Of a DNA stretch of 64,000 nt, positions 1 to 53,583 are shown piece after piece. The stretch comes from Anthopleura xanthogrammica (lineage: Eukaryota > Cnidaria > Anthozoa > Actiniaria > Actiniidae). Positions within the stretch are counted from its first letter, which is position 1, and each line of letters starts with the position of its first letter. The DNA lies in the NCBI GenBank assembly GCA_964019055.1, contig OZ025207.1, positions 24,647,617-24,711,616 on the forward strand, read 5' to 3'. The notes below the pieces were generated by a model. It made no database searches. It worked only from the letters and a program-made list of their open reading frames with translations, and was not told the origin of the DNA. The position numbers and the translations under genes were made by a program.

Positions 1-1048
1 CACCAGTAATATTATCAGTTATGTTGACATCAGCACCAGCATTAATCAATGCACGACCCACACTTTCGTTGTTACTTTGAGAGACAGCACAAAACAAAGC
101 AGTTTGGTCACCATCATCAGTTATGTTGACATCAGCACCAGCATCAATCAGTGCACGAACCACACTCTCGTTGTTACTTTGTTCGACAGCAAAAAACAAA
201 GCAGTTCGGCCATACCTATCATTTATGTTGAGATCAGTACCAGCATCAATCAATGCACGAACCACACTCTCGTTGTTACTTTCTTGGACAGCATAAAACA
301 ATGCAGTTTCGCCATGATCATCAGTTTTGTGGACATCAGCACCAGCATCAATCAATGCACGAACCACACTCTCGTTGTTACTTTGTTCGACAGCAAAAAA
401 CAAAGCAGTTCGGCCATACCTATCATTTATGTTGACATCAGCACCAGCATCAATCAATGCACGACCCACACTTTCGTTGTTACTTTGAGATACAGCAAGA
501 AATAAAGCACTTTGACCAACCCTATCAGTTATGTTGACATCAGCACCAGCATCAATCAATGCACGAACCACACTTTCGTTGTTACTTTGAGAGACAGCAT
601 AAAACAAAGCAGTTTCGCCATCATCAGTTATGTCAACATCAGTGCCAGCATCAATCAATGCACGAACCACACTCTCGTTGTTACTTTCTTGGACAGCATG
701 AAACAAAGCAGTTTGGCACTCATCATCAGTTATGTTGACATCAGCACCAGCATCAATCAATGCACGAACCACACTCTCGTTGTAACTTTCTTGGACAGCA
801 AAAAACAAAGAAGTTTTACCATACCTATCAGTTACGTTGACATCAGCGCCACCATAAATTAGTGCACGAACCACACACTCGTTATTACTTTTTCGGACAG
901 CATAAAACAAAGCAGTTTGGCCATCATCATTATTTATGTTAACATCAGCACCAGCATCAATCAATGCTCGGGTCTCGTTCTCGTCTCTTTGGATGACGGC
1001 ACGCAACAAAAGATCAAACGTTTCACTAGTGTTGTTATCAGTAGTCAT
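1..1048 (-). CDS. RNase L-like ankyrin-kinase-KEN gene, unit 0, N-terminal part only
   Basis: The frame is open from an ATG at 1048 to the left edge, so only the first ~349 codons are in the window. It starts MTTDNNTSETFDLLLRAV, matching the start of units 1-3, then shows about ten ankyrin repeats of 33-34 residues with the consensus NNESVVRALIDAGADVNITD and G-x-TALFYAV. Kinase and KEN domains lie outside the window and are inferred only from the paralogues. Some repeats vary slightly (YGGADVNV, DAGTDVDI), but no stop or frameshift is seen. Upstream (1049-1459) is the spacer shared by all units; the adjacent TIMM21 copy found in units 1, 2 and 4 is missing and a BEL element lies there instead. 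Alternative: a generic ankyrin protein, but the shared start and spacer make a family member very likely. Confidence 0.85.
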   Translation of the reverse strand, partial: MTTDNNTSETFDLLLRAVIQRDENETRALIDAGADVNINNDDGQTALFYAVRKSNNECVVRALIYGGADVNVTDRYGKTSLFFAVQESYNESVVRALIDAGADVNITDDECQTALFHAVQESNNESVVRALIDAGTDVDITDDGETALFYAVSQSNNESVVRALIDAGADVNITDRVGQSALFLAVSQSNNESVGRALIDAGADVNINDRYGRTALFFAVEQSNNESVVRALIDAGADVHKTDDHGETALFYAVQESNNESVVRALIDAGTDLNINDRYGRTALFFAVEQSNNESVVRALIDAGADVNITDDGDQTALFCAVSQSNNESVGRALINAGADVNITDNITG

Positions 1049-1459
1049 GCTTTCATGTCAGAAGACTTGATGACCAACTGTAATATGCTGTTAAAGTATA
1101 TTTTCTATTTCAGTGTCATAAAAAGGATTCATGTCCAACTGCTGTTTACTGGATTCAAGCCAAGTGTTTGTTTGTCATAGGTATTCCACATCTTGAGCAA
1201 AATCTCAGCTTTTCATCTCAATTCATTGGTTCAACTTACGATAAATCCGTCATATACAAGGAAATCTTTGTTCTTTCACGATATTTTCGTTCATTTATAG
1301 TCTTACCGTCGTGATAGAAGTGTTTCTTTGCAGATCTCTTGGCCTTCGTTATTCAATGCAGCACATTGTAGTCACATATCGATCGTTGATATCACTTGAA
1401 CATCACTGTACCTATCAGAACGATTGTACTAAGACAAGATTACAGTAGATCTAACCACG
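1049..1459. promoter_or_regulatory. 5' flank of unit 0, left half of the bidirectional spacer
   Basis: This stretch aligns by eye with the sequence upstream of units 1-4, from the block just before the ATG to the conserved GATCTAACCACG at its right end, where the BEL LTR begins abruptly. In the other units it leads on to TIMM21 on the plus strand. It should hold the promoter of the minus-strand gene; no TATA box is assigned with confidence. Confidence 0.5.
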
Positions 1460-1745: not shown

Positions 1746-4700
1746 TCCTCCCCCTTGGACGAGCTTGGATGTTTGTGACTTGGATGGTCTTAATGTTTGG
1801 TAAGCTGCGAAACTTGGATGATCTTGCGGCTTGGTTGTGGAACTTGGACGATCTTGCGGCTTGGGTGTGGAACTTGGACGATCTCGCAGCTTGGATGTGG
1901 AACTTGGACGATCTCGCAGCTTGGTTGTGGAACTTGGATGATCTCGCAGCTTGGCTGTGGAACTTGGACGATCTCGCAGCTTGGTTGTGGAACTTGGACG
2001 ATCTCGCAGCTTGGCTGTGGAACTTGGACGATCTCGCAGCTTGGCTGTGGAACTTGGATGATCTCGCAGCTTGGCTGTGGAACTTGGACGATCTCGCAGC
2101 TTGGTTGTGGAACTTGGATGATCTCGTAGCTTGGCTGTGGAACTTGGATGATCTCGCAGCTTGACTGTGGAACTTGGATGATCTTTGAAAGCTTCTAGTA
2201 AGTGAAGTCGTTGAACTGGTCTGTTTACCAGTCCCTTTTTCGTCAATACTTTAACAGTTCTAATTCAACCATCGGTTCCAGGGAACGTTTGGACGACTTT
2301 TCCAATCTTCCATTTCCCTCTAGGAATATTGTCATCTGTAATCAACACAATATCCTTTTCTTTAAGGGGGTTCATCTCTTGTGTCCACCGTTGTCTTACA
2401 GTAAGTGTTGGTAGATATTCACGCATCCAGCGAGTCCAAAAGTGGTTAAGCAGTTGTTGCTGATAATAATAACGTTCGTTTAGGGAAACACTTCGAGTTG
2501 GCACTTCAGGTTCGCTACCAAGATCTCTTCCTATCGCAAGTAGGGCAGGTGTAATTATTTTCCCATCTCTGATGTCATCACCAATGTATGTGAGAGGTCT
2601 TGAATTGATTGTAGCTTCAATGCCTGTCAGGACTGTATACATCTCTGTGTATGTCAAAAGTGCCTTGCCCAATACTCTTCTTAATGGTTCTTTGATTTGG
2701 CGACATACTCGTTCCCAATGTCCTCCGCGGTGACTGGCTCTTTCCGTAATAAACTTCCATTGAACTTTGTCGTTGGCTAGACTGTTCACAACCTTTTCTG
2801 GGTCAATGCTTGCTTGTTTTGCCTTCTGTTTTGAGACCTTGAACACCTTGTCTGCTTTGTGGAATGTGGACTGGTTATCAGAGCGTACGATTCTTGGTAC
2901 ACCACGTCTACTAACCATACGATGATAGGCTTGTAAGAACTCTTCCGTTGTCATGTTGTTTGTAAGCTCTAGATGAACTGCTCGCGTATCTTCGCACACG
3001 AATATACAAATGTAGGCTTTCACAAGGGATTTGTCTTCTCTTGTCTTTAGGTATAGAGGGCCAGTAAAATCCAGACCAATATTCGTAAATGGAGGAACGA
3101 TCTGTACTCGGTCTGCAGGTAAAGGGGCCATCTTCTGCTCGACTGGCTTTGTTTTCAGGTGTTGACAAATTAGACACTTGCGCAGTACTCGTTTAACCTC
3201 TCTCCTTCCTTGTGTTATCCAGAATCGTTGACGGACAATGCTGAGAGTAGTTTCAGGTCCAGCGTGATTGGCTTTACAATGGACATCTAATATGACCTTT
3301 TCTGTAACATTACACTTGTGAGGCATTATTACTTGGTGTTTGGCTTCTTCTGAGATGGACGCGAACTCTAATCTTCCACCAACAACCAGTAGACCGTTGT
3401 CATCATTCATTTGTGGGTCTAGCTTAGCGATACTGCTTGACTTGCTCACTTGATTTCCTTGTTGAAGTGCTCGTAGTTCGTCTTGAAAGGCATTTTGTTG
3501 TATTCCTTTCAGTAAAGAGTGCTCTGCATCCTTGACCTCATCTCCGGTGAGATATCCCAGCTTTGGTTTCTTGTGTAGTCTTTTCCACTTCAACAACCAT
3601 GCGGTGACACGAACTAACTTCTGCCAGCTCTCGTAGCGCTCTTCTAAGCATACTTCGGTGCTGCTTGTCATGGTAATTGAAGTTTTCTTGGCTTCGATAA
3701 GTAATTCTTCAGTTGTCTTCAAATCTTCAAGCTTTGGAACTGTAAGTAGTTTATCTGGCCATTCATTAAAATCACGTGATAGCCAATCTGGACCATTCCA
3801 CCATGTCTTGTCAGCAATCAGTTGTGGTAATGGCTCTCCACGTGTCAGTAAATCTGCAGGGTTCTGTGCTCCAGGACAGTACTGCCATTGCGATGGTGGA
3901 ACATTTTCCTTGATTTCTTGTACACGATTGGCCACGAACACCTTCCACTTCTGGCTAGATTGTCTAATCCACGCGAGAACAACTTGAGAGTCTGTCCAGC
4001 ACTTCACTTGTGTAACGGTTGTAGTTATAGACTCCAGTATTAACTTCATAATTCTTGAGAGAATTAATGCGCCAAGTAATTCCAATCTTGGAAGAGTGAC
4101 TTGCTTTGTTGGCGCGACTTTGCTCTTTGACAGCATAAGGTGTGTTTGAACATTACCACTAACATCTTTGCATCTTACGTAGACAGCTGCACCGTAAGCC
4201 TTTAAACTTGCATCACAAAATCCATGTAGTTCAAATTCAGTCACATCATCTAGTTCAGCAAACGGACACCGTGGTACTTGCAGCTGTTGTAGATACTTCA
4301 GTTCTTCTTTCCAACTCTTCCATTCAACTTTGGTTTCTTCATCAAGTGACTCATCCCATTGAATACCTTTAGACCAAAGTTCTTGAAACATCATCTTTGT
4401 TCTGATTGTAAAAGGACCAAGTAAGCCAAGAGGGTCAAACAACCTTGACGCTGTACTAATAAGGCTTCTCTTCGTCGTTTCATCTTCGGCATTAAGTAAT
4501 GTTTCACCTTGGTTGAATTTGAACGTATCTCCTCTAGTAATCCAGGCAATGCCAAGTACTTTAAGCGGCTCTTCTTTGCTTTCAACTTGAACTAACGGTG
4601 CTGTTCCTCTTAGATCAGGGTCTATGAGATCGCGTAGTTCTTGTGAGTTGGTGTACCATTTTACGAGTTGAAATCCACCAGTCTTCATTAAAGAACATAG

Positions 4701-7700: not shown

Positions 7701-7706
7701 TTTCAT
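1677..7706 (-). CDS. BEL/Pao gag-pol polyprotein with one in-frame stop near the C-terminus
   Basis: The frame from ATG 7706 runs 1813 codons to a TGA at 2265-2267, then stays open in the same frame to TAA at 1677. The second part begins IRTVKVLTKKGLVNRPVQRL and ends in RTIKPPTRYGQ, as BEL polyproteins do, so the TGA looks like a point lesion or readthrough site. Domains in order: coiled N-terminus; gag-like DUF1759 (LPKFTLPVFNGDILEW); Cys/His knuckles (CPFCENHHEPSKC; CFNCLLPTGPHH); aspartic protease (VDSGSDHSYI); reverse transcriptase (RVVFDASAR, MYVDDLL); RNase H (HGFCDAS, CWTDSQVV); integrase zinc-binding region and DDE core (GLDFTGP, RSDNQSTF, GHWERV). After the stop come about twelve 10-residue repeats, KLRD(H/R)PSST. 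It replicates the element and is not a host gene. Confidence 0.92.
1746..1756 (-). other. Polypurine tract of the BEL element
   Basis: On the minus strand AAGGGGGAGGA lies immediately before the TGTACA start of the 3' LTR, the expected position for the plus-strand priming site of an LTR element. Confidence 0.75.
1809..2190 (-). repeat. 30-bp minisatellite in the 3' end of BEL pol
   Basis: About twelve tandem copies of a 30-bp unit encode the decapeptide (H/R)PSST(A/T)KLRD in the pol frame. The unit length keeps the frame open on minus, and the plus strand also stays open. It lies between the integrase C-terminus and the final RTIKPPTRYGQ segment. Confidence 0.9.
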
Positions 7707-7752
7707 CTGCCGTTCTACAGAATTTGTGTTTACTTCTTTAGGAGTAGAGCGA

Positions 7753-7917
7753 TTAACTGGAGTAGAAAACGAGGCGGCAATTAAGGGATTTTAACTTAAC
7801 TAACCTTTTAATTAATTCCGCTCGGGTACCAATTGCCGAAGCGCCTTGGGCTTCCAACTCATTTCGGATATCGGCCGTGGCCATTCTTTGTATTGTCGCA
7901 GACACATCGTGGGCCAT
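7753..7917 (-). CDS. Small SAP-motif ORF in the BEL leader
   Basis: A 54-codon frame begins MAHDVSATIQRMATADIRNE and continues LEAQGASAIGTRAELIKRLV. The pattern ADIRNELEAQGASAIGTRAELIKRL resembles the SAP helix-turn-helix motif that binds AT-rich DNA. It lies between the 5' LTR and the main ORF. A GTTAGT-type donor near its end and AG acceptors just before the pol ATG would allow it to be spliced in front of pol, which is an inference. It could also be a chance frame. Confidence 0.45.
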   Translation of the reverse strand: MAHDVSATIQRMATADIRNELEAQGASAIGTRAELIKRLVKLKSLNCRLVFYSS

Positions 7918-9311: not shown

Positions 9312-12300
9312 TTACTTGTTCATCGCGTACTTGATTTCTTCTACTGTTTGATCCCATCCATGATCGGTCACAACCTTGTACACTTCCATCACAAGATGAG
9401 GGAAATATTCCAGAAACACGAAGTCTTCCAGTAACAATTTCTTGATTGGTGTTGGCCGTGTGGCTTCAGAGACGTGTGCGTAAGCATTTCGTATAAACCG
9501 CACTAACTCCACTACAGAGTGAGTATCGTAAGACCTTCTCCTTGGTGGAGTCATTTCAGCGTAGATAGGAGGCATGTTTTTATACCTGGGGTCATTCCAC
9601 TTCCCGTGCACGACTATGGTACTAAAGTTCTTCTCCAAGTCGGTCTCCACAGGAGTTAAGCCAGTTGATCTTCTTGCACGTGGGCATCCAAACACTGACT
9701 GGTTTCCAACAGCAATGAGAAGATTTACTTTTCTCTTCTTTGACCAGAACAATGGATGATCCAGACTTTCTGCTGCACATGAGCGTTTCTCTTTATCACA
9801 TTCGAGCATCCTTTGTACAAGGTGAGTAGCCTCTAGCTGAATAGATCTATCCCATCCTTCCAGGTTTCCATTCATGATGTTGGCTTCTGTTTCATGAGCA
9901 ATTTGATATTCTCCCTTACTGGCACAATCACTTGGAGAAAATGGGTGTTTTTGTCTTGATAGAATGTAAAAAAGAACAAGTCCACATGAAAACATGTCGG
10001 ATGCCTTGGAATGATCGTGAGTACCCATCAACACTTCTGGAGACATATAACACCTCGTTCCTGCATTAGTACCAAGCACTGTAGTTGTGATATTATCAAC
10101 GCAACGGCTGAGACCAAAGTCAGCAATTTTCAAACGTAGTTGAGGCTGGGTTTTATAAAGAATATTGCCAGGCTTCAGGTCGCGATGAATGATATCTTTC
10201 ACATGCAGAAACCTCAACCCCTTGACTAAATCTTCACAAAGTTGATTACTTTTTGTGGCGTCAAATGTCGAAGCATCAGTAAGGTACTCGTCAAGATTTC
10301 CTTCCATCAGTTCTAAAACGATGTATGAGAACTTGTCCTCTTCAAAGAAATTCAGATATCGAACAATTTGTTCGCAGTCTGCAAGAGCAGTGAGATTTGT
10401 AATCTCTCGTTTGTCTTCTGGTCGCTGCATACGTACTTTCTCAATGCGCTTGATGGCCACTTCTCTACCATCCTTTTCATTGATTCCAACAAAAACATGG
10501 CCAAATGAGCCACTTCCTATGTGTTCTTTGTGACACCAGAATTCCTCATGTATCACATCGCACTCTTGTCGTCTAGCAACTTTGGCCAATTTGACTTCAT
10601 ATTTCTTCGAAATAGAAGTCCACGGAATGAGTACAGAGACTGTGCTCAAATCTAAGGCTTTTGTGAGGAGTTCTTTAAGAGCATCAGAAGCGTCTGCCAT
10701 GTCCAGACAGGACTTGCCATCAGCTCCATACAAGCGAAGGATCTTAACGATTTCACAATGCACAGATGAGTTTTCAAACTTTGCTTCTATTGAATGGTCT
10801 GATGTGTCCATTCTTCTTTTCTTTGATTGAGGTTGTTCCTCATCACTTGTTTCATCATCTTCACTAGCTGACATTTCAGAAGCTGCAGAGGGAGACTTCT
10901 CTTCTACTTTGTTACCCAATACGCCAGTATCTATAATATTCCTACAGCAGAGACGAAGTGGTTCAGACGCAGTGGTGGAAATATCTTGGACAAGATTCGT
11001 TTTCCAATTTGTTCGTGTGGATTTGTCTTTACAGATAGCATTTAAAAGACCAACAGCCAATGTCTCGGACTGAGTATGACCCTCCTCACAAGCAACGTCA
11101 ACCAGAGCTTTGGCTAGAGCAAATTTCCCTTGTTTAATGAGAATACTTAAAACTGACTCACCATCGTTGTCAGCTGTCCATGGATCAAGTCCCTTGTCGA
11201 TGGCAGTTTTCCAAAATGATTTTGGGTCTTCTAACTCTGAAACATCTGCGTAAAGACCACCCTGATAACGACGAAATGACCATCTTTTGGCCGCCGCAAC
11301 AAGAGGTGCTGCTCCTGATGAATCGACATCGTTAGCGTTTGCTCCAGCATCAAGCAACAGCTTCACAGCTATCCAGGTACTGCACAAATGTAAAGGGGTT
11401 TTATCATCACCGTTTCTGTTATTCAGTTTTGCTCCACACTGCAAAATGTAGTTTAGTATTGTTTGTAAGAATTCCTCAAATGAAAGATCTCTAGTAACAT
11501 TACTGGTATAGTCTCGAGGTGATCGTAATTCTAGTGACGCCCAAAGGTGCAGTGGTGAATTGAGATCAGCATCACTTGCGTTAACAATTCCTCTCAGGTT
11601 TTTTACTGTAGCAGGTAAAAATATTCGCAAAAGTTTTATCGTTTCATGTAAGACATCTTGTTGTATTGTATCAGATAAGCGAAGTCCTTGCTGGAAAAGG
11701 TTTAGTATTAAATGATAAACAGTTTTTCCACTTTGAGATCTTTCTTCAATGCCAGATCTGTGTTTTGACAAAAATCTACACACTTCCACAAGGGTTTTTA
11801 CTGCTGATAGTTGATTTTCTTCTCGTAATAACTGCCCCACATCTCTAGAGAGACAAAACATAAGAGGTGTTTCGTTCTTATGGTTTCTCCAGTTAAATTG
11901 AACACCAAGTTTCTCCAGCTGAAGACAAATCTCCATCACGATGTCTTGAGGTACACCCATCAATGCTAAACGAGTCGCATAGTGAAGGGCTGTATTACCA
12001 TCTGAATCAACACTATTAGGATCGGCACCTAACTTAACCAATAGTTGTAAAGCTTCTGATACTCCTTCTCCATTTTTACATTTTACATTTATAAGCGCAA
12101 TCAGCTTTTCCATTTCCTCTTGATTGTCAATAAACTGACTAGCAAGTCCTAAGGCCCTAGTAATATGTGTTATTGTGCAGAAACTTATAAACTTAATCAA
12201 CCTTTCTATGAACAGCTCACTGACAGGAAACTTACAGAAAACTATGTTCAAAATTGCTTCAGCAAATGTTACCTTCTGTACTCCACATAACTCAAGCAGA

Positions 12301-14310
12301 TCGAAAAAGCCAGGAGGAACGTTTTGTGAAAGCGAGTCTTCACTATCACCATGGAATAAATTTCTGTCAACAAAACAGTTCAAAATGCTGCAATTAAAAA
12401 TATCTTTCAAGAAAAAGGGATAGTTTTTTCCAATTTCAACAAGAATACGAGCTGACTTTGGATAGTCGAGAGCGTAAAATAATGGTGTTCTCCCATAAAC
12501 ATCTCGCACATTAACAAATGCACCGCCAGCATCAATCAATGCACAAACCACATTCTCGTTGTTACTTTGTTGGACAGCATGAAACAAAGCCGTTTGGCTA
12601 TTGTCATCAAGTATGTTGAAGTCTACACCAGCATGAATCAATGCACGAACCACACTCTCGTTGCTACTTTGTTGGACAGCATAAAATAAGGCTGTTTTTC
12701 CAGAAATATGAAAGCTACTGGTACCACTCAATGAATAAACAAATTTATCTTCTTCATACCAACTTTCCAAAAAACAATCAGTTTTGTTGATATTAACACC
12801 AGCATCAATCAATGCACGAACCACATTCTCGTTGTTACTTTGTTGGACAGCATAAAACAAAGCAGTTTGGCCATCCTCATCAGTTATGTTCACATCAGCA
12901 CCAGCATTAATCAATGCACGAACCACACTCTCGTTGTTACTTTGTTGGACAGCATAAATCAAAGCAGTTTGGTTATTACCGTCAGTTATGTTGACATCAG
13001 CACCAGCATCAATCAATGCACGAACCATGCTCTTGTTGTTACTTTGTCGGACAGCGTCAAACAAAGCAGTTCGGCCATAATCATCAGTTATGTTCACATC
13101 AGCACCAGCATTAATCAATGCACGAACCACATTCTCGTTGTTACTTTGTTGGACAGTATAAAACAAAGCAGTTTGGCCATCCTCATCAGTTATGTTCACA
13201 TCAGCACCAGCATTAATCAATGCACGAACCACACTCTCGTTGTTACTTTGTTGGACAGCATAAATCAAAGCAGTTTGGTTATTACCGTCAGTTATGTTGA
13301 CATCAGCACCAGCATCAATCAATGCACGAACCATGCTCTTGTTGTTACTTTGTCGGACAGCGTCAAACAAAGCAGTTCGGCCATAATCATCAGTTTTGTT
13401 GATATCAGCACCAGCATCATTCAATGCACGAATCACACTCTCGTTGTTACTTTGGTGGACAGCATAAAATAAGGCTGTTTTTCCAGATGTAAGATAGTTA
13501 CATGGTCTCAACGAAAGACCAACTATATCTTCTTCACTCAAATTTATGTTAAAACTATCAGTTTTGTTGATATTTACACCAGCATCAATCAATGCACGAA
13601 CCACATTCTCGTTGTTACTTTGTTGGACGGCATCAAACAAAGAAGTTTGGCCATCAACATTCGTTATGTTGACATCAGCACCAGCGTCAATCAATGCACG
13701 AACCACACTCTCGTTGTTACTTTGTTTGACAGCATGAAACAAAGCAGTTTTACCATCAAAGTTAGTACTCATGTTGACGTCAGCACCAGCATCGATCAAT
13801 GCACGAACCACACTCTCGTTGTTACTTTTATTCACAGCATAAAACAAAGCAAAATAAAAGCATAAAAACAAAGCATAAAAAAATATCTTCAGTTTCGTTG
13901 ACATCAGCACCAGCATCAATCAATGCACGAACCACACTCTCGTTGTTATTTTGTTGGGCAGCATCAATCAAAGCAGTTCTGCCATCATTATCAGTTATGT
14001 TGACATCAGCACCAGCATCAATCAATGCACGAACCACACTCTCGTTGTTACTTTGTTGGACAGCATAAAACAAAGCAGTTTTACCAAAATGATCAGTTAT
14101 GTTGACATCAGCACCAGCATTAATCAATGCACGAACCACACTCTCGTTGTTACTTTGTTGGACCGAATAAAACAAAGCAGTTTCACCAAAATGATTAGTT
14201 ATGTTGACATCAGTACCAGCATCAATCAATGCACGGGTCTCGTTCTCGTTTCTTTGGATGACGGCACGTAACAAAATATCAAACTTTTCAGTACCGTTAT
14301 CAGTAGTCAT
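9312..14310 (-). CDS. RNase L-like ankyrin-kinase-KEN protein, unit 1, with apparent frameshift
   Basis: Start is ATG 14310 (MTTDNGTEKFDILL), shared with units 0, 2 and 3. The first frame (160 codons) stops at 13828; the rest (to TAA 9312-9314) is open in another frame for over 1500 codons. A run of seven A at 13877-13883 fits a one-base insertion that explains the shift, whether mutation or assembly error. Next to it an ankyrin repeat is partly replaced by a hydrophobic segment (KIFFYALFLCFYFALFYAV). N-terminal ankyrin repeats include a three-repeat (306-bp) block present twice. Then follow a second ankyrin block, an acidic linker with SKKRRMD, a kinase (GSGSFG, AIKRIEK, HRDLKPGN, DFG) and a KEN domain with Tyr-x12-Arg-Asn-x3-His, matching IRE1 catalytic residues Tyr892/Arg905/Asn906/His910. 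Predicted role: ankyrin-regulated endoribonuclease. No signal peptide or N-terminal membrane segment is seen. Confidence 0.85.
12841..13452 (-). repeat. Internal 306-bp duplication within the ankyrin array of unit 1
   Basis: Three consecutive 34-residue repeats occur twice in a row with almost identical DNA, offset by 306 bp. This shows recent growth of the repeat stack in frame. Confidence 0.8.
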
Positions 14311-24108: not shown

Positions 24109-27100
24109 TTACTTGGTCATCGCGTACTTGATTTCTTCTACTGTTTGATCCCATCCATGATCAGTCACAACCTTGTACACTTCCATCACAAGATCAGGGA
24201 AATATTCCAGAAACGCAAAGTCTTCCAGTAACAATTTCTTGATTGGTGTTGGCCGTGTGGCTTCAGAGACGTGTGCGTAAGCATTTCGTATAAACCGCAC
24301 TAACTCTACTACAGAGTGAGTATCGTAAGACCTTCTCCTTGGTGGAGTCATTTCAGCGTAGATAGGAGGCATGTCCTTATACCTGGGGTCATTCCACTTC
24401 CCATGCACGACTATGGTACTAAAGTTCTTCTCCAAGTCGGTCTCCACAGGAGTGAAGCCAGTTGATCTTCTTGCACGTGGGCATCCAAACTCTGACTGAT
24501 TTCCAACAGCAATGAGAAGATCGACTTTTCTCTTCTTTGACCAGAACAATGGATGATCTAGACTTTCTGCTGCACATGGGCGTTTGTCTTTATCACATTC
24601 GAGCATCCTTTGTACAAGGTGAGTAGCCTCTAGCTGAATAGATCTATCCCATCCTTTCAGGTTTCCATTCATGATGTTGGCTTCTGTTTCGTGAGCAATC
24701 TGATATTCTCCCTTACTGGCACAATCACATGGAGAAAATGGGTGTTTTTGTTCTGACAGAATGTAATGAACAACAAGTCCACATGAAAACATGTCGGATG
24801 CCTTGGAATGATCATGAGTACCCATCAACACTTCTGGAGCCATATAACACCTCGTTCCTGCATTAGTACCAAGCACTGTAGTTGTGATATTATCAACGCG
24901 ACGGCTGAGACCAAAGTCAGCAATTTTCAAACGTAGTTCAGGATGGGTTTTATAAAGAATATTCCCAGGCTTCAGGTCGCGATGAATGATATCTTTCGCA
25001 TGCAGAAACCTCAACCCCTTGACTAAATCTTCACAAAGTTGAGTACTTTTTGTCGCGTCAAATGTGGAACCATCAGTAAGGTACTCGTCAAGATCTCCTT
25101 CCATCAGTTCTAAAACGATGTATGAGAACTTGTCCTCTTCAAAGAAATGCAAATATCGAACAATTTGTTCGCAATCTGCAAGAACAGTGAGATTTGTAAT
25201 CTCTCGTTTGTCTTCTGGTCGCTGCATACGTACTTTCTCAATGCGCTTGACGGCCACTTCTCTACCATCTTTTTCATTGATTCCAACAAAGACATGGCCA
25301 AATGAGCCACTTCCTACGTGTTCTTTGTGACACCAGAATTCCTCATGGATCACATCGCACTCTTGTCGTCTAGCAACTTTGGCCAATTTGACTTCATATT
25401 TCTTGGAAATAGAAGTCCACGGAATGAGTACAGAGACTTTGTCAAAATCTAAGGGTTTTGTGAGGAGTTCTTTAAGAGCATCAGAAGTATCTGCCATGTC
25501 CAGGCAGGACTTGCTATCAGCTCCATACAAACGAAGGATCTTTATGGTTTCACAATGAATGCGCACAGATGAGTTCTCAAACTTTGCTTGTATTGAATGG
25601 TCTGGTGTGTCCATTCTTCTTTTCTTTGATTGAGGATGTTCCTCATCAATTGTTTCATCGTCTTCACTAGCTGACATTTCAATAGCTGCAGAGGAAGACT
25701 TCTCTTCTGCTTTGTTATCCAATACGCCAGTTTTTATAATATTCCTACAGCAAAGACGAAGTGGTTCGGATGCAGTGGTAGAACATTTCCTTGACTTTAA
25801 AATATCTTGGACAAGATTCGTTTTCCAATTTGTCCGTGTTGACTCGTCTTTGCAGATGGCATTCAAAAGACCTACAGCAAATGTCTCGGACTGAGTGAGG
25901 CCCTCCTTACAAGCAACGTCAACCAGAGCTTCCGCAAGAACAAAGTTCTCTAGGTTAATGAGAATGCTTAAAACTGACTCATCCTTATTGTCAGCTGTCC
26001 ATGGATCAAGCCCCTTTTCGATGGCAGTTTTCCAAAGTGATTTTTGCTCTTCTAACTCTGCAACATCTTGGTAGATACGCTCAAGAAAAAATAATGACCA
26101 CTTATTTTTCACCGCGGCTAAAAGAGGTGATGCTCCTGATGAATCAACATCGTTAGCGTTTGCTCCAGCATCAAGCAACAGCTTCACAGCTATCCAGGTT
26201 TTGCAGAAATGCAAAGGGGTTTCATCGTCATCATTTTTGGCATTCAATTTTGCTCCACACTGTAAAAGGTAGTTTAAGATCGTTTCTAAGAATTTCTCAA
26301 ATGTGAGATCTCTAGTAACATTGCTTGTATATTCTTGAGGTGATGGTAATTCTAGTGACGCCCAAAGGTGCAGTGGTGAATTGAGATCAACATCCCTTCC
26401 GTTAACAATTGCTCTCAGGTTTTTTACTTTAACAGATAAAAATAACGGCAAAAGCTTCATTGCTTCCTGCAAGAAATCTTGCCGCACTTTCTTATCATGT
26501 AAGCGAATACCTTGTTGGAAAAGGTTTAATGTTAAATGATAAACAGTTTTTCCACTTTCTTCAATGCCGGATCTGTGTTTTGACAAAAATCTACAGACTT
26601 CCACCAGGGTTTTTACTGCTGATATTTGATTTACTTCTCGTAACTGCCCTACATCTGTAGACAAACAAAACATAAGAGGTGTTTGGTTCTTATGGTTTCT
26701 CAAGTTAAATTGAACACCAAGTTTCTCCAGCTGAAGACAAATCTCCATCACGATCTCTTGAGGTACACCCATCAATGCTAAACCAGTCGCATAGTGAAGG
26801 GCTGTATTACCATCTGAATCAACACTATTAGGGTTGGCACCTAGCTCAACCAATAGTTGTAAAGCTTCTGATACTCCTCCATTTTCACATTTTCCATTTA
26901 TACGCGTAATCAACATTTCCATTTTCTTTTCATTGTCAATAAACTGACTAGCTAGTTCTAAAGCTCTAGTGATGTCTGTTTGCCGCCGATTCCCAGAAGA
27001 TGCCAGTGATATTTTTGGAAACATAAGAGAAAACTTACAAAAGACTATGTTCAAAATTGCTTCAGCAAATGTTGCTTTCTGTACTTCACCTTCTTCAAGC

Positions 27101-27930
27101 AATTCGAAAACTCCAGGAGGAATCTTTTGTGAAAGTGAGTTTTCACTATCATAATGGGATAAATGTCTGTCAACAAAAAAGTTAAAAATGCTGCAATTAA
27201 AAATATCTCTCAAGAAAAATGGATATTTTTTTCCTATTTCAAAAAGAATACGAGCTGACTTTGGATAGTTAAGAGCGTAAAACAATGATGTTCTCCCATA
27301 AACATCTCGCACATTAACAAATGCACCGCCAGTATCAATCAATGCGCGAACCACATTTTCGTTGTTACTTTGTTGGACAGCATGAAACAAAGCCGTTTGG
27401 CCATTATCATCAGTTTTATTGATATCAGCACCAGCATCAATCAATGCACGAACCATACTCTCGTTGCTACTTTGTTGGACAGCATAAAATAAGGCTGTTT
27501 TTCCAGAAATACCAAAGCTACCTCTCATGTTGATATCAGCTTCAGTATCCATCAATGAATGAACAACATTGTCGTAGTTATCTTCTTCAAACCGAGTTTG
27601 GTCAAAACAATCAGTTATATTGACATCAGCACCAGCATCAATCAATGCACGAACCACATTTTCGTTGTTACTTTGTCGGACAGCATAAAACAAAGCAGTT
27701 TGGCCATTATGATCAGTTTTGTTGACATCAGCACCAGCAACAATCAATGTACGAACCACACTCTCGTTGTTACTTTGTTGGACAGCATGAAACAAAGCAG
27801 TTTCACCAAAATGATTAGTTATGTTGACATCAGCACCGGCATTAATCAGTGCACGGGTCTCGTTCTCGTTTCTTTGGGTGACGGCACGAATCAAGGTATC
27901 AAACTTTTCAGTACTGTTATCAGTAGTCAT
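24109..27930 (-). CDS. RNase L-like ankyrin-kinase-KEN protein, unit 2, intact
   Basis: A single open frame of 1273 codons runs from ATG 27930 to TAA 24109-24111. Residues 1-~270 are ankyrin repeats (DAGADVNITDHFGETALFHAV type); ~370-~700 hold a second, divergent ankyrin block (LGANPNSVDSDGNTALHYA, GANANDVDSSGASPLLAA). Around 770 is an acidic stretch followed by SKKRRMD, a possible nuclear localisation signal. The kinase spans ~865-1131 with GSGSFG at 873-878, Lys895, HRD Asp985 and DFG Asp1005. The KEN domain is ~1132-1273 with Tyr1202, Arg1215, Asn1216 and His1220 in the spacing of IRE1 catalytic residues. In IRE1 and RNase L, kinase-domain dimerisation activates KEN to cut RNA. The ankyrin stack would be the ligand sensor, as in RNase L for 2-5A; the ligand here is unknown. 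No introns interrupt the coding sequence. Best reference copy of the array. Confidence 0.93.
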   Translation of the reverse strand: MTTDNSTEKFDTLIRAVTQRNENETRALINAGADVNITNHFGETALFHAVQQSNNESVVRTLIVAGADVNKTDHNGQTALFYAVRQSNNENVVRALIDAGADVNITDCFDQTRFEEDNYDNVVHSLMDTEADINMRGSFGISGKTALFYAVQQSSNESMVRALIDAGADINKTDDNGQTALFHAVQQSNNENVVRALIDTGGAFVNVRDVYGRTSLFYALNYPKSARILFEIGKKYPFFLRDIFNCSIFNFFVDRHLSHYDSENSLSQKIPPGVFELLEEGEVQKATFAEAILNIVFCKFSLMFPKISLASSGNRRQTDITRALELASQFIDNEKKMEMLITRINGKCENGGVSEALQLLVELGANPNSVDSDGNTALHYATGLALMGVPQEIVMEICLQLEKLGVQFNLRNHKNQTPLMFCLSTDVGQLREVNQISAVKTLVEVCRFLSKHRSGIEESGKTVYHLTLNLFQQGIRLHDKKVRQDFLQEAMKLLPLFLSVKVKNLRAIVNGRDVDLNSPLHLWASLELPSPQEYTSNVTRDLTFEKFLETILNYLLQCGAKLNAKNDDDETPLHFCKTWIAVKLLLDAGANANDVDSSGASPLLAAVKNKWSLFFLERIYQDVAELEEQKSLWKTAIEKGLDPWTADNKDESVLSILINLENFVLAEALVDVACKEGLTQSETFAVGLLNAICKDESTRTNWKTNLVQDILKSRKCSTTASEPLRLCCRNIIKTGVLDNKAEEKSSSAAIEMSASEDDETIDEEHPQSKKRRMDTPDHSIQAKFENSSVRIHCETIKILRLYGADSKSCLDMADTSDALKELLTKPLDFDKVSVLIPWTSISKKYEVKLAKVARRQECDVIHEEFWCHKEHVGSGSFGHVFVGINEKDGREVAVKRIEKVRMQRPEDKREITNLTVLADCEQIVRYLHFFEEDKFSYIVLELMEGDLDEYLTDGSTFDATKSTQLCEDLVKGLRFLHAKDIIHRDLKPGNILYKTHPELRLKIADFGLSRRVDNITTTVLGTNAGTRCYMAPEVLMGTHDHSKASDMFSCGLVVHYILSEQKHPFSPCDCASKGEYQIAHETEANIMNGNLKGWDRSIQLEATHLVQRMLECDKDKRPCAAESLDHPLFWSKKRKVDLLIAVGNQSEFGCPRARRSTGFTPVETDLEKNFSTIVVHGKWNDPRYKDMPPIYAEMTPPRRRSYDTHSVVELVRFIRNAYAHVSEATRPTPIKKLLLEDFAFLEYFPDLVMEVYKVVTDHGWDQTVEEIKYAMTK

Positions 27931-35813: not shown

Positions 35814-35859
35814 CTCCTATGAAAAAAGGAACAAAGTGTTTGTTAATGTCTTTTCAGTT

Positions 35860-38892: not shown

Positions 38893-41800
38893 TTACTTGT
38901 TCATCGCGTACTTGATTTCTTCTACTGTTTGATCCCATCCATGATCAGTCACAACCTTGTACACTTCCATCACAAGATCAGGGAAATATTCCAGAAACAC
39001 AAAGTCTTCCAGTAACATTTTCTTGATTGGTGTTGGTCGTGTGGCTTCAGAGACGTGTGCGTAAGCATTTCGTATAAACCGGACTAACTCTACTACAGAC
39101 TGAGTATCGTAAGACCTTCTCCTTAGTGGAGTCATTTCAGCGTAGATAGGAGGCATGTCCTTATACCTGGGGTCATTCCACTTCCCATGCACGACGATGG
39201 TACTAAAGTTCTTCTCCAACTCGGTCTCCACAGGAGTTAAGCCAGTTGATCTTCTTGCACGTGGGCATCCAAACACTGACTGATTTCCAACCGCACTTAG
39301 AAAATGGACTTTTCTCTTGTTTGACCAGAACAATGGATGATCCAAAGCTTCCTCTGCAGTTGGTCGATCCTTTCCATCACCCCGAAGCATGTTCTTGACG
39401 ATGTGAGTGGCTTCTGGAGAAAGAGAGTCATCCCATCCTTCCAGCCTCGAGCTCCCATTTGTCATGTTGGTTTGTATTTGGTGAGCCACTTGATTATTGT
39501 TCTTAGAGAAGGGGTGCTTTTGAACTGACAGAATGTAATGAAGAACAAGTCCACATGAAAACATGTCTGATGCCTTGGAATGATCGTGTGTACCCATCAA
39601 CACTTCTGGAGCCATCCAACACCTCGGACCTGCATTAGTACGAAGCACTGTAGTGGCGATACTATCAATGCAACGGCTGAGACCAAAGTCAGCAATTTTC
39701 AAACGTAGTTCAGGATGGGTTTTAAAAAGAATATTGTCAGGCTTCAGGTCGCGATGAATGATATCTTTCGCATGCAGAAACCTCAACCCCTTGACTAAAT
39801 CTTCACAAAGTTGAGTACTTTTTGTCGCGTCAAATGTTGAAGCATCGGCAAGGTACTCGTCAAGATTTCCTTCCATCAGTTCTAAAAAGATGTATGAGAA
39901 CTTGTCCTCTTCAAAGAAATGCAAATATCGAACAATTTGTTCGCAATCTGCAAGCGTAGTGAGAATTGTAATCTCTCGTTTGTCTTCTGGTCGCTTCATA
40001 CGTAATTTCTCAATGCGCTTGACGGCCACTTCTCTACCATCCTTTTCATTGATTCCAACAAAGACATGGCCAAATGAGCCACTTCCTACGTGTTCTTTGT
40101 GACACCAAAATTCCTCATGGATCACATCGCACTCTTGTCGTCTAGCAACTTTGGCCAATTTGACTTCATATTTCTTTGAAATAGAAGTCCACGGAATGAG
40201 TACAGAGACTGTGCTCAAATCTAAGGGTTTTGTGAGGAGTTCTTTAAGAGCATCAGAAATGTCTGCCATGTCCAGACAGGACTTGCCATCAGCTCCATAC
40301 AAACGAAGGATCTTTATGATTTCACAATGCACAGATGAGTTCTCAAACTTTACTTCTATTGAATGGTCTGATGTGTCCATTCTTCTTTTCTTTGATTGAG
40401 GTTGTTCCTCATCAATTGTTACATCATCTTCCCTAGCTGACATGTCAGTAGCTGCAGAGGAAGACTTCTCTTCTGCTTTGTTATCCAATACGCCAGTTTT
40501 TATAATATTCCTACAGCAAAGACGAAGTGGTTCGGATGCAGTGGTAGAACATTTCCTTGCTACTTTTTCGGGTGAAAATAATTGCAAGAGTTTTATTGCT
40601 TCATGCAAGACATCTTGTCTTTCTGCCATATCACTTAAGTGAAGTCCTTCTTGAAAAAACTTCAGTAGTAAATGAAGAACAGTTTTTTTACTTCGAGACC
40701 TTTCTTCAATGCTTGATCCGTGTTTTGACAAAAATCTACAAACTTCTACCAGGGTTTTTACTGCTGATAACTTAATATCTTCTGGATTGAACGCCATCTT
40801 AACTCTAGATGACAAGCAAAACAGTAGGGGTGTTTGATTCTCATTGTTTCTCAAGTTAAATTGCACACCAAGTTTCTCCAACTGAAGACAAATCTCCATC
40901 ACGATCTCTTGAGGTACACCATTCAATGCTAAACGAGTCGCATAGTGAAGTGCTGTATTACCATCTGAATCAACACTATTAGGATCGGCACCTAACTCAA
41001 CCAATAGTTCTAAAGCTTCTGATACCCCTTCTTCATTTTCACATTCAATTTCATAAATCAGCTCAATCAACCTTTCCATTTCCTCTTGATTGTCAATAAA
41101 CTGACAGGCTAGTTTTAAGGCTCTAGTGATGTGCCGTGTTTGCGGACTCCCAACAACTGGTATTTTTCGGAACATGGGAGGGAACTTACAAAAAGCTATA
41201 TTCAAAATCGCTTCAGCAAATGTTGTTTTCTGAACCTCACATTCTTCAAGCAAATCGAAAAAGCCACGAGGAATGTTTTGTGAAAGATAGTGATCATCTT
41301 CACTATGATCACTATCATCTTCACTATGATCACTATCATCTTCACGATGATCACTATCATCTTCACGATGATCACTATCATCTTCACTATGATCACTATC
41401 ATCTTCACGATGATCACTATCATCTTCACGATGATCACTATCATCTTCACGATGATCACTATCATCTTCACGATGATCACTATCATCTTCACGATGATCA
41501 CTATCATCTTCACGATGATCACTATCATCTTCACGATGATCACTATCATCTTCACTATGATCACTATCATTTTCACGATGATCACTATCATCTTCACGAT
41601 GATCACTATCATCTTCACGATGATCACTATCATTTTCACGATGATCACTATCATCTTCACGATGATCACTATCATCTTCACTATGACCACTATCATCTTC
41701 ACAAACACTATCATATTGGAATAAACGTCTGTCAACAAAAAAGTTCAAGATGCTACAATTAAAATTATCTATCAAGCGAAACGGATATTTTCCTCCCTTT

Positions 41801-42975
41801 TCAACAAGAATACGAGCTGACTTTGGAAAGTTAAGAGCGTAAAACAATGGTGTTCTCCCATAAATATCTCGCACATTTACAAAGTCGCCGCAGCTATCAA
41901 TCAATGCACGAACCACATTTTCGTTGTTTCTTTGTTGGACAGCATGAAACAAAGCCGTTTGGCCATTATCATCAGTTTTGTTGACATCAACACCAGCATT
42001 AATCAATGCGCGAACCACAATCTCGTTCTTACATTGTAGGAGAGCATGAATCAAAGAAATGTTGACATCAGCACCAGCATCAACCAATGCACGAACCACA
42101 CTCTTAATTTCTTTTTGTTCGAAAGCATAAAACAAAGCAGTTTTGCCATCCCCATCAGTTATATTGACATCAGCACCAGCTTCAATCAATGCACGAACCA
42201 CACTCTTAATTTCTTTTTGTTCGAAAGCATAAAACAAAGCAGTTTTGCCATCCCCATCAGTTATATTGACATCAGCACCAGCTTCAATCAATGCACGAAC
42301 CACACTCTTGTCGTGTTTGACAGCATAAAACAAAGCAGTACGGCCACCTCTTTCAGTTTTGTTGACATCAGCACCAGCTTCAATCAATGCACGAACCACA
42401 CTCTCGTCGTGTTCAACAGCATAAAACAAAGCAGTTTTGCCATCATCGCAATCAGTTTTAGTGTTGACATCAGCACCAGCATCAATCAATGCACGAACCA
42501 CACTCTCGTTACCTTTTTGGACAGCAAGAAACAAAGCAGTTTGCCCGAAAATAATTTCAGTTTTGTTGACATCAGCACCAGCAGCAATCAATGCACGAAC
42601 TACACTTTCGTTGTCATTGCTTACGACAGCATCAATCAAAGCAGTTTTACCAAAAACGTCAGTTAAGTTGACTTTAGCACCAGCATCAATCAATGCACGA
42701 ACGGCCCTCTCTTTACTTTCTCGGACAGCATAAGACAAAGCAGTTTCGCCAATTGTATTACTTTTGTTGACATCAGCACCAGCATCAATCAATGCACGAA
42801 CCACACTCTCGTTGTCACTTTGTTGGACAGCATGAAACAAAGCAGTTTCGCCATAAGCACCAGTTATGTTGACATTAACACCAGCATCAATCAATGCACG
42901 GGTCTCGTTCTCGTCTTTTTGGGTGACGGCACTTAACAAACGATCAAACTTTTCATTACTGTTATCAGTAGTCAT
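38893..42975 (-). CDS. RNase L-like ankyrin-kinase-KEN protein, unit 3, intact with rearrangements
   Basis: One open frame of 1360 codons runs from ATG 42975 to TAA 38893-38895. Residues 1-~370 hold many ankyrin repeats, several with GKTALFYA. Residues ~425-562 are about twenty acidic heptads, ED(D)SDH(R/S), from a 21-bp minisatellite. An ankyrin block follows (LGADPNSVDSDGNTALHYA), but the ~230-residue segment before the linker in units 1 and 2 (including GANANDVDSSG) is missing in frame: the text passes from SPEKVARKC straight to STTASEPLRLCC. The kinase has GSGSFG, Lys in AVKRIEK, HRDLKPDN and DFG. Its C-lobe tail (KNNNQVAHQIQTNMTNG... RGDGKDRPTAEEAL) differs strongly from the paralogues. 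KEN has Tyr1289, Arg1302, Asn1303 and His1307. Predicted role as for unit 2. The mosaic structure suggests gene conversion or recombination with another paralogue. Confidence 0.93.
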   Translation of the reverse strand: MTTDNSNEKFDRLLSAVTQKDENETRALIDAGVNVNITGAYGETALFHAVQQSDNESVVRALIDAGADVNKSNTIGETALSYAVRESKERAVRALIDAGAKVNLTDVFGKTALIDAVVSNDNESVVRALIAAGADVNKTEIIFGQTALFLAVQKGNESVVRALIDAGADVNTKTDCDDGKTALFYAVEHDESVVRALIEAGADVNKTERGGRTALFYAVKHDKSVVRALIEAGADVNITDGDGKTALFYAFEQKEIKSVVRALIEAGADVNITDGDGKTALFYAFEQKEIKSVVRALVDAGADVNISLIHALLQCKNEIVVRALINAGVDVNKTDDNGQTALFHAVQQRNNENVVRALIDSCGDFVNVRDIYGRTPLFYALNFPKSARILVEKGGKYPFRLIDNFNCSILNFFVDRRLFQYDSVCEDDSGHSEDDSDHREDDSDHRENDSDHREDDSDHREDDSDHRENDSDHSEDDSDHREDDSDHREDDSDHREDDSDHREDDSDHREDDSDHREDDSDHREDDSDHSEDDSDHREDDSDHREDDSDHSEDDSDHSEDDHYLSQNIPRGFFDLLEECEVQKTTFAEAILNIAFCKFPPMFRKIPVVGSPQTRHITRALKLACQFIDNQEEMERLIELIYEIECENEEGVSEALELLVELGADPNSVDSDGNTALHYATRLALNGVPQEIVMEICLQLEKLGVQFNLRNNENQTPLLFCLSSRVKMAFNPEDIKLSAVKTLVEVCRFLSKHGSSIEERSRSKKTVLHLLLKFFQEGLHLSDMAERQDVLHEAIKLLQLFSPEKVARKCSTTASEPLRLCCRNIIKTGVLDNKAEEKSSSAATDMSAREDDVTIDEEQPQSKKRRMDTSDHSIEVKFENSSVHCEIIKILRLYGADGKSCLDMADISDALKELLTKPLDLSTVSVLIPWTSISKKYEVKLAKVARRQECDVIHEEFWCHKEHVGSGSFGHVFVGINEKDGREVAVKRIEKLRMKRPEDKREITILTTLADCEQIVRYLHFFEEDKFSYIFLELMEGNLDEYLADASTFDATKSTQLCEDLVKGLRFLHAKDIIHRDLKPDNILFKTHPELRLKIADFGLSRCIDSIATTVLRTNAGPRCWMAPEVLMGTHDHSKASDMFSCGLVLHYILSVQKHPFSKNNNQVAHQIQTNMTNGSSRLEGWDDSLSPEATHIVKNMLRGDGKDRPTAEEALDHPLFWSNKRKVHFLSAVGNQSVFGCPRARRSTGLTPVETELEKNFSTIVVHGKWNDPRYKDMPPIYAEMTPLRRRSYDTQSVVELVRFIRNAYAHVSEATRPTPIKKMLLEDFVFLEYFPDLVMEVYKVVTDHGWDQTVEEIKYAMNK
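41285..41712 (-). repeat. 21-bp coding minisatellite (acidic heptads)
   Basis: About twenty copies of a 21-bp unit, GATGATCACTATCATCTTCAC on plus with an occasional C to T change. All three minus frames and at least two plus frames are open across it, but only the EDDSDHR frame continues the unit 3 protein. Confidence 0.93.
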
Positions 42976-43440
42976 CTTTTGATGTCAGAAGACTTAATGT
43001 AACAACTGTAATATGTTGTTACAGTATATTTTCTATCTCAGTGTCATAAAAAGGATTCATGTCCAACTGCTCTTTACTGGATTCAAGCCAAGTGTTTGTT
43101 TGTCATAAGTATTCCACATCTTGAACAAGATCTCATCTTTTCATCTCAATTCATTGGTTCAACTTACGATAAATCCGTCATATACCAGGGAATCCCTGTT
43201 CTTTCACAATATTTTCGTTCATTTGTAGTCTTACCGTCGTGATGGAAGTGTTTCTTTGCAGATCTCTTGGCCTTATGATGTTGTTGTTAAGGCACTTCCG
43301 CCTTCGTTATTCAATGCAGCACATTGCAGTCACATATCGATCGTTGATATCACTTGAACATCACTGTACCTTTCAGAACGATTGTACTAAGACAAGATTA
43401 CAGTAGATCTAACCACGTTCGAGGTGAGATATCGAAGAGA
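42976..43440. promoter_or_regulatory. 5' flank of unit 3
   Basis: Homologous to the spacer of the other units up to the plus-strand donor-like TTCGAG|GTGAGATATC near 43418, then diverges. The TIMM21 copy expected beyond it is absent. Confidence 0.45.
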
Positions 43441-50047: not shown

Positions 50048-53000
50048 TTACTTGTTCATCGCGTACTTGATTTCTTCTACTGTTTGATCCCATCCATGAT
50101 CGGTCACAACCTTGTACACTTCCATCACAAGATGAGGGAAATATTCCAGAAACACGAAGTCTTCCAGTAACATTTTCCTGATTGTTGTTGGTCGTGCTGC
50201 ATCAGAGACGTGTGCGTAAGCATTTCGTATAAACCGCACTAACTCTACTACAGAGTGAGTATCGTAAGACCTTCTCCTTGGTGAAGTCATTTCAGCGTAG
50301 ATAGGAGGCATGTCCTTATTTCTGGGGTCATTCCACTTTCCATATACGACTATGGTACTAAAATTCTTCTCAAAGTCGGTCTCCACAGCACTTAGACAAA
50401 TTGATCTTCCTGCACGTGGGTATTCAAACACTGACTGGTTTCCAACAGCAATGAGAAGATCGACTTTTTTCTCATTCGACCAGAACAATGGATGATCCAA
50501 AGTTTCTGCTCCACATGGTCGTTTGTCTTTATCACATTCGAGCATCTTTTGTACCAGGTGAGTAGCCTCTAGCTGAATAGATCCATCCCATCCTTCCAGG
50601 TTTCCATTTCGGATGTTGGTTTCTTTTTCGTGATCAATTTGATATTCTCCCTTACTGGCACAATCACTTGGAGAAAATGGGTGCTTTTGAGCTGACAGAA
50701 TGTAATGAACAACAAGTCCACATGAAAACATGTCTGATGCCTTGGAATGATCATGAGTACCCATCAACACTTCTGGAGCCATCCAACACCTCGTTCCTGC
50801 ATTACTACCATAGACTGTGGTGGTGCTACTATCAACGCGGCGGCTGAGACCAAAGTCAGCAATTTTCAAACGAAGATCAGGATGTGTTTTATAGAGAGTA
50901 TTCCCGGGCTTCAGGTCGCGATGAATGATATCCTCAGCATGCAGAAACGTCATCCCTTTCACTACATCTTGACAAAGTTGAGTGTTTTTTCTGGCGTCAA
51001 ATGTGGAACCATCAGTAAGGTACTCGTCAAGATTTCCTTCCATCAGTTCTAAAACGATGTATGAGAACTTTTCCTCTTCAAAGAAATGCAAATATCGAAC
51101 AACTTGTTCGCAGTCTGCAAGAGCAGTAAGATTTGTAATCTCTCGTTCGTCTTCTGGTCGCTGCATACGTGACTTCACAATGCGTTTGATGGCCACTTCT
51201 CTGCCATCCTTCTTATTGATTCCAACAAAGACATCACCATATGAGCCAATACCTATGTGTTTTTTATGACACCAAAATTCCTCATGGATCACATCGCACT
51301 CTTGTCGCCTAGCAACTTTGGCCAATTTGACTTGATATTTCTTTGAAATAGAAGTCCAAGGGATGAGTACAGATACCGTGCTAAAATCCAAAGGTTTTGT
51401 GAGGAGTTCTTTGAGATCATCAGAAGTGTCTGCCATGTCCAGGCAAGAACTGCCATCAGCTCCATACAAACGAAGGATCTTAATAATTTCACAATGCACA
51501 GATGAGTTTTCAAACTTTGCTTCTATTGAATGGTGTGATGTGTCGATTCTTCTTTTTTTTGATTGAGGTTGTTCCTCATCATTTGTTTCATTGCCTTCAC
51601 TGGCTGACATTCCAGTAGCTGCAGAGGAAGACTTTTCTTCTGCTTTGTTATCCAATCTGATGCTAGTTTCTATTACATTTCTACAGCAGAGACGAATTGG
51701 TTCAGACGAAGTAGTAGGACCTTTTCTTGCCTTTAAAATATCTTGTACAATAATTGTTTTCCAATTTGCCCTTGTAGATTTGTCTTTACAGATAGCATTC
51801 AAAAGGCCAATAGCGAAATTCTCTGACCGAGTGTATTTCTTTTCACAAGCAACATCGACCAGAGCTTTGGCTAGAGCAAAGTTCCCTTGTTTAATGAGAA
51901 TACTTAAAACTGACTTACCATCGTTGTCAGCTGTCCATGGATCAAGTCCCTTGTCGATGGCAGTTTTCCAAAATGATTTTGGGTCTTCTAACTCTGAAAC
52001 ATCTGCGTAAAGACCACCCTGATAACGACGAAATGACCATCTTTTGGCCGCAGCAACAAGAGGTGCTGCTCCTGATGAATCGACATCGTTAGCGTTTGCT
52101 CCAGCATCAAGCAACAGCTTCACAGCTATCCAGGTACTGCACAAATGTAAAGGGGTTTTATCATCACCGTTTCTGTTATTCAGTTTTGCTCCACACTGCA
52201 AAATGTAGTTTAGTATTGTTTGTAAGAATTCCTCAAATGAAAGATCTCTAGTAACATTACTGGTATAGTCTCGAGGTGATGGTAATTCTAGTGACGCCCA
52301 AAGGTGCAGTGGTGAATTGAGATCAGCATCACTTGCGTTAACAATTCCTCTCAGGTTTTTTACTGTAGCAGGTAAAAATATTCGCAAAAGTTTTATCGTT
52401 TCATGTAAGACATCTTGTTGTATTGTATCAGATAAGCGAAGTCCTTACTGGAAAAGGTTTAGTATTAAATGATAAACAGTTTTTCCACTTTGAGATCTTT
52501 CTTCAATGCCAGATCTGTGTTTTGACAAAAATCTACACACTTCCACAAGGGTTTTTACTGCTGATAGTTGATTTTCTTCTCGTAATAACTGCCCTACATC
52601 TCTAGAGAAACAAAACATAAGAGGTGTTTCGTTCTTATGGTTTCTCCAGTTAAATTGAACACCAAGTTTCTCCAGCTGAAGACAAATCTCCATCACGATC
52701 TCTTGAGGTACACCCATCAATGCTAAACCAGTCGCATAGCGAAGGGCTGTATTACCATCTGAATCAACACTATTAGGATCAGCACCTAAATCAACCAGTA
52801 GTTCTAAAGCTTGTGAAGCTCCTTCCCCATTTACACATTTTTCATTTATTAGTGCAATCAAAATTTTCGTTTCCTTTTCATTATCAATAAACTGTCTTGC
52901 TTGTTCTAAGGCTCTAGTGATGTGTATTATTCTGCAGAAACTCGAAAACGGAGTCAAACGAACTGACCTTTCTATGAACAGCTCAGGGAACTTACAGAAT

Positions 53001-53583
53001 GCTATGTTCAAAATTGCTTCAGCAAATGTTATTTTCTGTACTTTACATTCTTCCAGCAAATCGAAAAATCCAGGAGGAATGTTTTGTGAAAGAGAGTCTT
53101 CACTATAGTCATCATCATGGACTAAACGTTTGTCAACAAAAAAGTTCAAAATGCTGCAATTAGAATTATCTTTCAAGCGAAAAGAATATTTTCTTTCTTT
53201 TTCAACAAGTATACGAGCTGAATTTGGACAGTCGAGAGCGTAAAACAATGATGTTCTCCCATAAACATCTCGCACATTTACAAATGCACCACCACCATCA
53301 ATCAATGCTCGAACCACGCTCTCGTTGTTACTTTGTTGAACAGCATAAAACAAAGCAGTTTGGCCATTATCATAAGCTTTGTTGACATCAGCACCAGCAT
53401 CAATCAGTGCACGAACCATGCTCTCGTTGTTACTTTGTCGGACTGCATAAAACAAAGCAGTTTGACCATACCTATCAGTTATGTTGACATCAGCGGCAGC
53501 ATCGATCAATGCACGAACCACAGACTCGTTGTAACTTTCTTGAACAACATCAAACAAAGCAGTTTGGCCATTTATATCAGTTG
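50048..53583 (-). pseudogene. RNase L-like gene, unit 4: start deleted, one premature stop
   Basis: The frame ends at TAA 50048-50050 and is open for 779 codons back to 52387, but a TAA at 52445-52447 (codon Gln, CAA, in unit 1) interrupts it; upstream the same frame is open to about 53583. There it fuses directly to the 5' flank sequence GTTACAGTATAG, so the initiator ATG and the first ankyrin repeats are missing. The remainder has three ankyrin repeats, the second ankyrin block, the linker (SKKRRID), a kinase (GIGSYG, AIKRI, HRDLKPGN, DFG) and a KEN domain with Tyr-x12-Arg-Asn-x3-His intact. Few other lesions suggest recent loss. Internal initiation downstream of the stop could in principle give a kinase-KEN protein; that is speculation. 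Confidence 0.85.

Follow-up and report, generated by a model that had tools for sequence, protein, structure and literature searches.

We analysed a 64-kb stretch of the genome of the anemone Anthopleura xanthogrammica, referred to here as the window (C2:24647617-24711616 of a 290 Mb genome; positions without a contig name count from its first letter). It holds five minus-strand copies of an RNase L-like gene in which ankyrin repeats, a protein kinase domain and the RNase L/KEN domain (PF06479) follow one another. An earlier note on this DNA had described five such copies, and these were confirmed by four kinase and KEN ends together with a fifth duplicated upstream region. The array is larger than the window, extending beyond its left edge, with six KEN matches in 66 kb (Table 1). 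The 3' ends in the window lie 14.8, 14.8 and 11.2 kb apart, and both upstream and downstream flanking DNA has been duplicated along with the genes. In the genome, unit 1 (L026) is an open frame of 1511 amino acids from an ATG with the full domain set, and the extra copy to its left (L028) encodes 1241 amino acids, also with the domain set. The proteins of units 3 and 4 both start MTTDNS. For unit 5, the start region is absent as aligned and an in-frame stop lies at 52445-52447; it is probably a pseudogene. The fifth copy of the upstream region adjoins this unit, and a GTAAGT conserved in all five aligned upstream copies is compatible with an untranslated first exon.

Table 1. Coordinates of the array and its units, in window positions unless a contig is named.
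Feature	Position	Strand	Remark
KEN matches of the array	C2:24631506, 24644165, 24656967, 24671764, 24686548, 24697703		PF06479 genome search
Kinase and KEN 3' ends	9315-10562, 24112-25359, 38896-40131, 50051-51298	minus, all four	
N-terminus common to units 1-4, starts	1048, 14310, 27930, 42975	minus	
Unit 1, N-terminus and ankyrin array	1..1048	minus	3' part beyond the window
Unit 2, ankyrin-kinase-KEN gene	9312..14310	minus	frame break near 13830-13920
Unit 2 KEN (PF06479)	9315..9737	minus	Pfam
Unit 3, intact single-frame ankyrin-kinase-KEN gene	24109..27930	minus	1273 amino acids from ATG
Unit 3 KEN	24112..24534	minus	Y-x12-RN-x3-H intact
Unit 3 kinase	24535..25359	minus	VAVK, HRD, DFG intact
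Unit 4, intact single-frame ankyrin-kinase-KEN gene	38893..42975	minus	1360 amino acids from ATG
Unit 4 KEN	38896..39318	minus	
Unit 5	50048..53602	minus	kinase and KEN remain in open frame
Unit 5 KEN	50051..50473	minus	
Duplicated upstream region, family D6	1075-1374 (unit 1), 14341-14640, 27957-28256, 43003-43302, 53568-53867	minus for the unit 1 copy	

Ankyrin, kinase and PF06479 models scored above the Pfam cut-off in all four 3'-complete window copies, in agreement with the note's claim that these ends share the three parts. For the ends of units 2 to 5, in order, PF06479 reached 42.2, 42.9, 44.4 and 42.4 bits (E-values 1e-10, 6.5e-11, 2.2e-11 and 9.5e-11), about 19-21 bits over the cut-off of 23.3, while Pkinase gave E-values of 2e-56 or better and the ankyrin models were far over their cut-offs. 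No lumenal PQQ-type domain was reported in Pfam scans of the family, and ankyrins fill the N-terminal part. The kinase and KEN region aligns to yeast IRE1 over both domains (E 2.1e-34). The predicted KEN active-site residues Tyr, Arg, Asn and His were found in four of four window copies, with the IRE1-type spacing Tyr-x12-Arg-Asn-x3-His that the note had reported, and in nearly all relatives counted (the 111 of 120 listed that had a near full-length match). Exceptions include the first KEN of L035, L042, P0046, P0112 and P0118. Likewise, none of these four window copies has lost the kinase Lys, Glu, HRD or DFG. All 13 mammalian RNase L rows carry DFD and have lost the HRD Arg, a pseudokinase hallmark that the window copies do not display; judged by its motifs, their kinase looks active and IRE1-like.

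The structure model, built from a 60-row alignment with 18 IRE1 and 6 RNase L rows, superposes on IRE1 across both the kinase and KEN domains and, less closely, on RNase L. Since both proteins contributed rows to the alignment, the resemblance of the model to IRE1 is not an entirely independent result. Alignments to the model start at residues 1-12 for RNase L chains and at residues 28-36 for IRE1 chains. A first model from 23 rows, without IRE1 or RNase L, was set aside for its poor kinase C-lobe (predicted local distance difference test score, pLDDT, 58.9).

Across the genome we found 79 PF06479 matches, every one over the cut-off; these genome counts are lower bounds. Two of them (C18:6102785 and 6103985) mark exons of L012, an ordinary IRE1 gene split into several exons. 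Clusters with gaps below 60 kb take in 58 of the 79, the IRE1 exon pair included, and the open frames around the matches reach at least 600 amino acids in 63 cases and at least 1000 in 56. We read 41 matches in 40 fetched stretches (the IRE1 exon pair in one), in addition to the four in the window, and 33 of the 39 non-IRE1 stretches had a full kinase-KEN in a single frame (34 matches, L035 contributing two). With two pairs on C15 scoring identically and two C1 matches sharing one frame, the genes number slightly fewer than 77. Among the matches listed (the best 120 of 4625), the closest named relatives of the window kinase-KEN were proteins of the sea anemone Actinia tenebrosa, with up to 79% identity; two other searches likewise covered 120 rows each, of 4419 and 4817 hits. 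The organisms named were Actinia, Exaiptasia, Actinostola and Dendronephthya, most proteins being uncharacterized or hypothetical and many rows unnamed. Six copies, compared in 15 pairs, gave ratios of mean nonsynonymous to mean synonymous divergence (dN/dS) of 0.51 for the middle ankyrins, 0.38 for the linker, 0.39 for the kinase and 0.51 for KEN. Only the linker of units 3 and 4 (1.10), one of 60 pair-regions, lay above 1. Such ratios fit purifying selection acting on the coding frames.

Several family members depart from the common layout. L035 carries a second kinase-KEN in one frame, its first KEN being without R, N and H, while L038 has a second, partial kinase match within one frame, and the kinase of L030 and L031 is degenerate. 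The precomputed Pfam list adds PF01335, which we take to be the death effector domain, to relatives P0112 and P0114, which suggests a tie to cell death. The linker of P0003, in the region of residues 760-860, is acidic, and a basic KKRR patch that may be a nuclear localisation signal precedes the kinase. Inside unit 4, a 21-bp tandem repeat (41293-41702, 19.5 copies) encodes an acidic run of the DDSDHRE type.

Descent was examined in trees of 53 rows (kinase-KEN) and 58 rows (KEN only), drawn from 95 sequences prepared, in which RNase L was mammalian only. With the yeast root, the kinase-KEN tree recovered the family as one group (100/97), joined to RNase L (100/96) against metazoan IRE1. The KEN-only tree split the family plus RNase L from IRE1 at 100/100 and nested RNase L inside the family by two changes, with the family monophyletic in 31% of bootstrap trees. 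The RNase L stem in the kinase-KEN tree is very long (2.95 changes per column), so long-branch attraction may contribute to the grouping with the family. When KEN alone was scored, 105 of 155 rows fitted the RNase L profile better, among them all four window copies. L045, the deepest branch of the kinase-KEN tree, was considered as a closer relative of RNase L and rejected, its KEN scores not favouring RNase L (23.8 against 26.5). We lean tentatively towards an origin shared by the family and RNase L.

The same genome encodes OAS. We identified 15 OAS1_C matches, all within C3:8516523-8688008, four of them with an internal stop. The two loci that were read carry GGSxGKGT...SDLD followed by VEVDLLP or VEVDILP, presumably the catalytic layout of OAS. 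According to PMC5927464, RNase L binds 2',5'-oligoadenylate (2-5A) with the help of ankyrin repeat 2, through Trp60 and Lys89, and of residues in repeats 4 and 9. A Trp60...Lys89 pattern modelled on human RNase L was present in 100 of 120 RNase L records among the matches listed, truncated records included; it is a pattern and not a binding test, and a re-wired pocket could escape it.

Taken together, we favour with moderate confidence the view that these genes belong to a large anthozoan family of receptor-nucleases, expanded by tandem duplication and serving innate, probably antiviral, defence. We class the family as RNase L-like rather than as RNase L itself. Its mechanism would be like that of RNase L at either end, input and output, and like that of IRE1 in between. 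The proteins, probably cytosolic, would sense a ligand or partner through the variable ankyrin array. Binding would then pair the kinase domains, with ATP binding and probably autophosphorylation, as the intact kinase motifs suggest. The C-terminal KEN domains would then assemble into a dimeric endoribonuclease, independent of metal, and cut RNA at the site predicted from sequence and model. The likely, though inferred, function is gated cleavage of RNA as part of innate defence. The earlier note had proposed an expanded invertebrate family of ligand-gated ribonucleases, possibly antiviral. The expansion, domain order, predicted site and predicted fold are borne out; the kinase, the 2-5A pattern and the tree tests described below do not establish these genes as RNase L. 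The ligand-gated and antiviral part, still an inference, gains from the OAS cluster that the genome also holds and from a report in Nematostella, in which RNase L and OAS1 homologs, so labelled there, were among the genes detected in the response to poly(I:C) (PMC8476169).

Compared with vertebrate RNase L, the anemone proteins have the same ankyrin-kinase-KEN order, the KEN Arg, Asn and His in four of four window copies, the same predicted fold over both catalytic domains and a like KEN profile score. They differ in their intact kinase motifs, in a longer, two-part ankyrin region, in lacking the Trp60...Lys89 pattern and in having dozens of copies, most of which lie in a single frame. With IRE1 (ERN1), the best structural match, they share an active-type kinase and a KEN with Y, R, N and H, but they carry ankyrins instead of a PQQ-type lumenal domain, and the IRE1 that the anemone does encode is a distinct gene of several exons. 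The ankyrin-kinase-KEN order is itself already known: Anantharaman et al. 2013 tabulated eukaryotic fusions of KEN to a kinase together with ankyrin repeats (PMC3710099). Those KEN/HEPN-ankyrin proteins resemble the present ones in all three parts, and the accessible part of that paper describes no cnidarian expansion. We found no description of a cnidarian ankyrin-kinase-KEN family in the titles and opening abstract lines of the open-licence papers listed.

A number of results weigh against the defence-nuclease reading, and several also bear on its rivals. At least two of the five window copies look broken. By sequence the kinase part is not specific to IRE1, since CDPK4 (6.8e-31) and human IRE1 (4.4e-30) scored about equally. 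The KEN domain alone matched no PDB chain under E 0.05 (best 0.069), and the 50 Foldseek matches listed included IRE1 and no RNase L. All 18 IRE1 rows have the KEN Tyr as aligned, against 3 of 13 RNase L rows; at this residue, too, the family is IRE1-like. Whole kinase-KEN profiles of IRE1 outscored those of RNase L in 64 of 64 rows. In the approximately unbiased (AU) test, placing the family with metazoan IRE1 was not rejected (p 0.253 for kinase-KEN, 0.109 for KEN only), and neither was placing RNase L there (p 0.0763 and 0.165). Finally, the Trp60...Lys89 pattern occurred in none of 120 listed relatives, 44 open reading frames of the same genome and six of the window, and none of the 47 window repeat anchors had an aromatic at the Trp60 position.

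This last result leaves the RNase L mode of 2-5A binding, and by sequence 2-5A as the family's ligand, unsupported. It tells against a true RNase L pathway, in which anemone OAS would make 2-5A that binds the ankyrin arrays and activates KEN, so that the OAS/RNase L system would predate vertebrates. The OAS cluster with its catalytic-type motifs in the two loci read, the joint grouping in both trees and the early start of the RNase L chains on the model all point towards such a pathway. PMC6307210, however, reports OAS without RNase L in eight lower Metazoa, among them Nematostella, Acropora digitifera and Orbicella, and we regard this pathway as improbable. The IRE1 affinities fit an independent fusion, in which ankyrins were joined to an IRE1-type kinase-KEN separately in cnidarians and came to look like RNase L by convergence. 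The seemingly active kinase, the whole-domain profiles and the AU results argue for it, while the bootstrap backing for the family with RNase L in both trees and the KEN-only scores argue against it; we consider it unlikely. A family that regulates host RNA, through IRE1-like decay, stress or development, would also suit a kinase and KEN of IRE1 type. Canonical IRE1 exists separately, however, and defence families commonly show the traits seen in this one, namely many copies, clustering in tandem, decayed members and ankyrin arrays that vary; a role outside defence seems to us improbable as well.

The finding matters because one anemone genome combines an OAS cluster with dozens of RNase L-shaped genes whose nuclease sites are apparently live. 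Such genes conflict with the absence of RNase L given in PMC6307210 and offer a testable system. OAS1 is reported to be enriched in RLRb-positive cells of Nematostella (PMC13319465). Anemones could serve to examine the roles of OAS products outside vertebrates and the origin of RNase L from an IRE1-type enzyme, where an active-looking kinase under an ankyrin array would be the expected intermediate. More speculatively, and in our view unlikely, tens of anthozoan receptor-nucleases may each have ankyrins attuned to their own nucleotide messenger or pathogen product, some of it supplied by the expanded OAS cluster, with RNA cutting as the one output. Where vertebrates have a single RNase L, anthozoans would then have a counterpart diversified by ligand.

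Motif scans were not used as evidence. GAAANNGAAA, which we take to be an IRF-like motif, has an equivalent position shortly upstream of units 1, 2 and 3 (1102-1111, 14364-14373 and 27984-27993), as copies of one duplicated site. Its scan gave 16 sites against 6.4 expected, an excess left aside because several sites are such copies. An NF-kB-like motif gave 7 against 2.6, consisting of repeated copies and palindromes, and was also left aside. Between units 1 and 2, the minus strand holds a Bel/Pao-type retrotransposon frame of 1841 amino acids (2265-7790) with Peptidase_A17, DUF1759 and integrase parts. Tandem repeats were observed at 33632-34235 (57 bp) and 35857-36303 (94 bp), the 94-bp repeat recurring in another intergenic stretch at 22557-22909. 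Beyond unit 5, a weak ankyrin-like match on the minus strand (62991-63155; 44%, E 1e-5) is possibly the remnant of a further copy.

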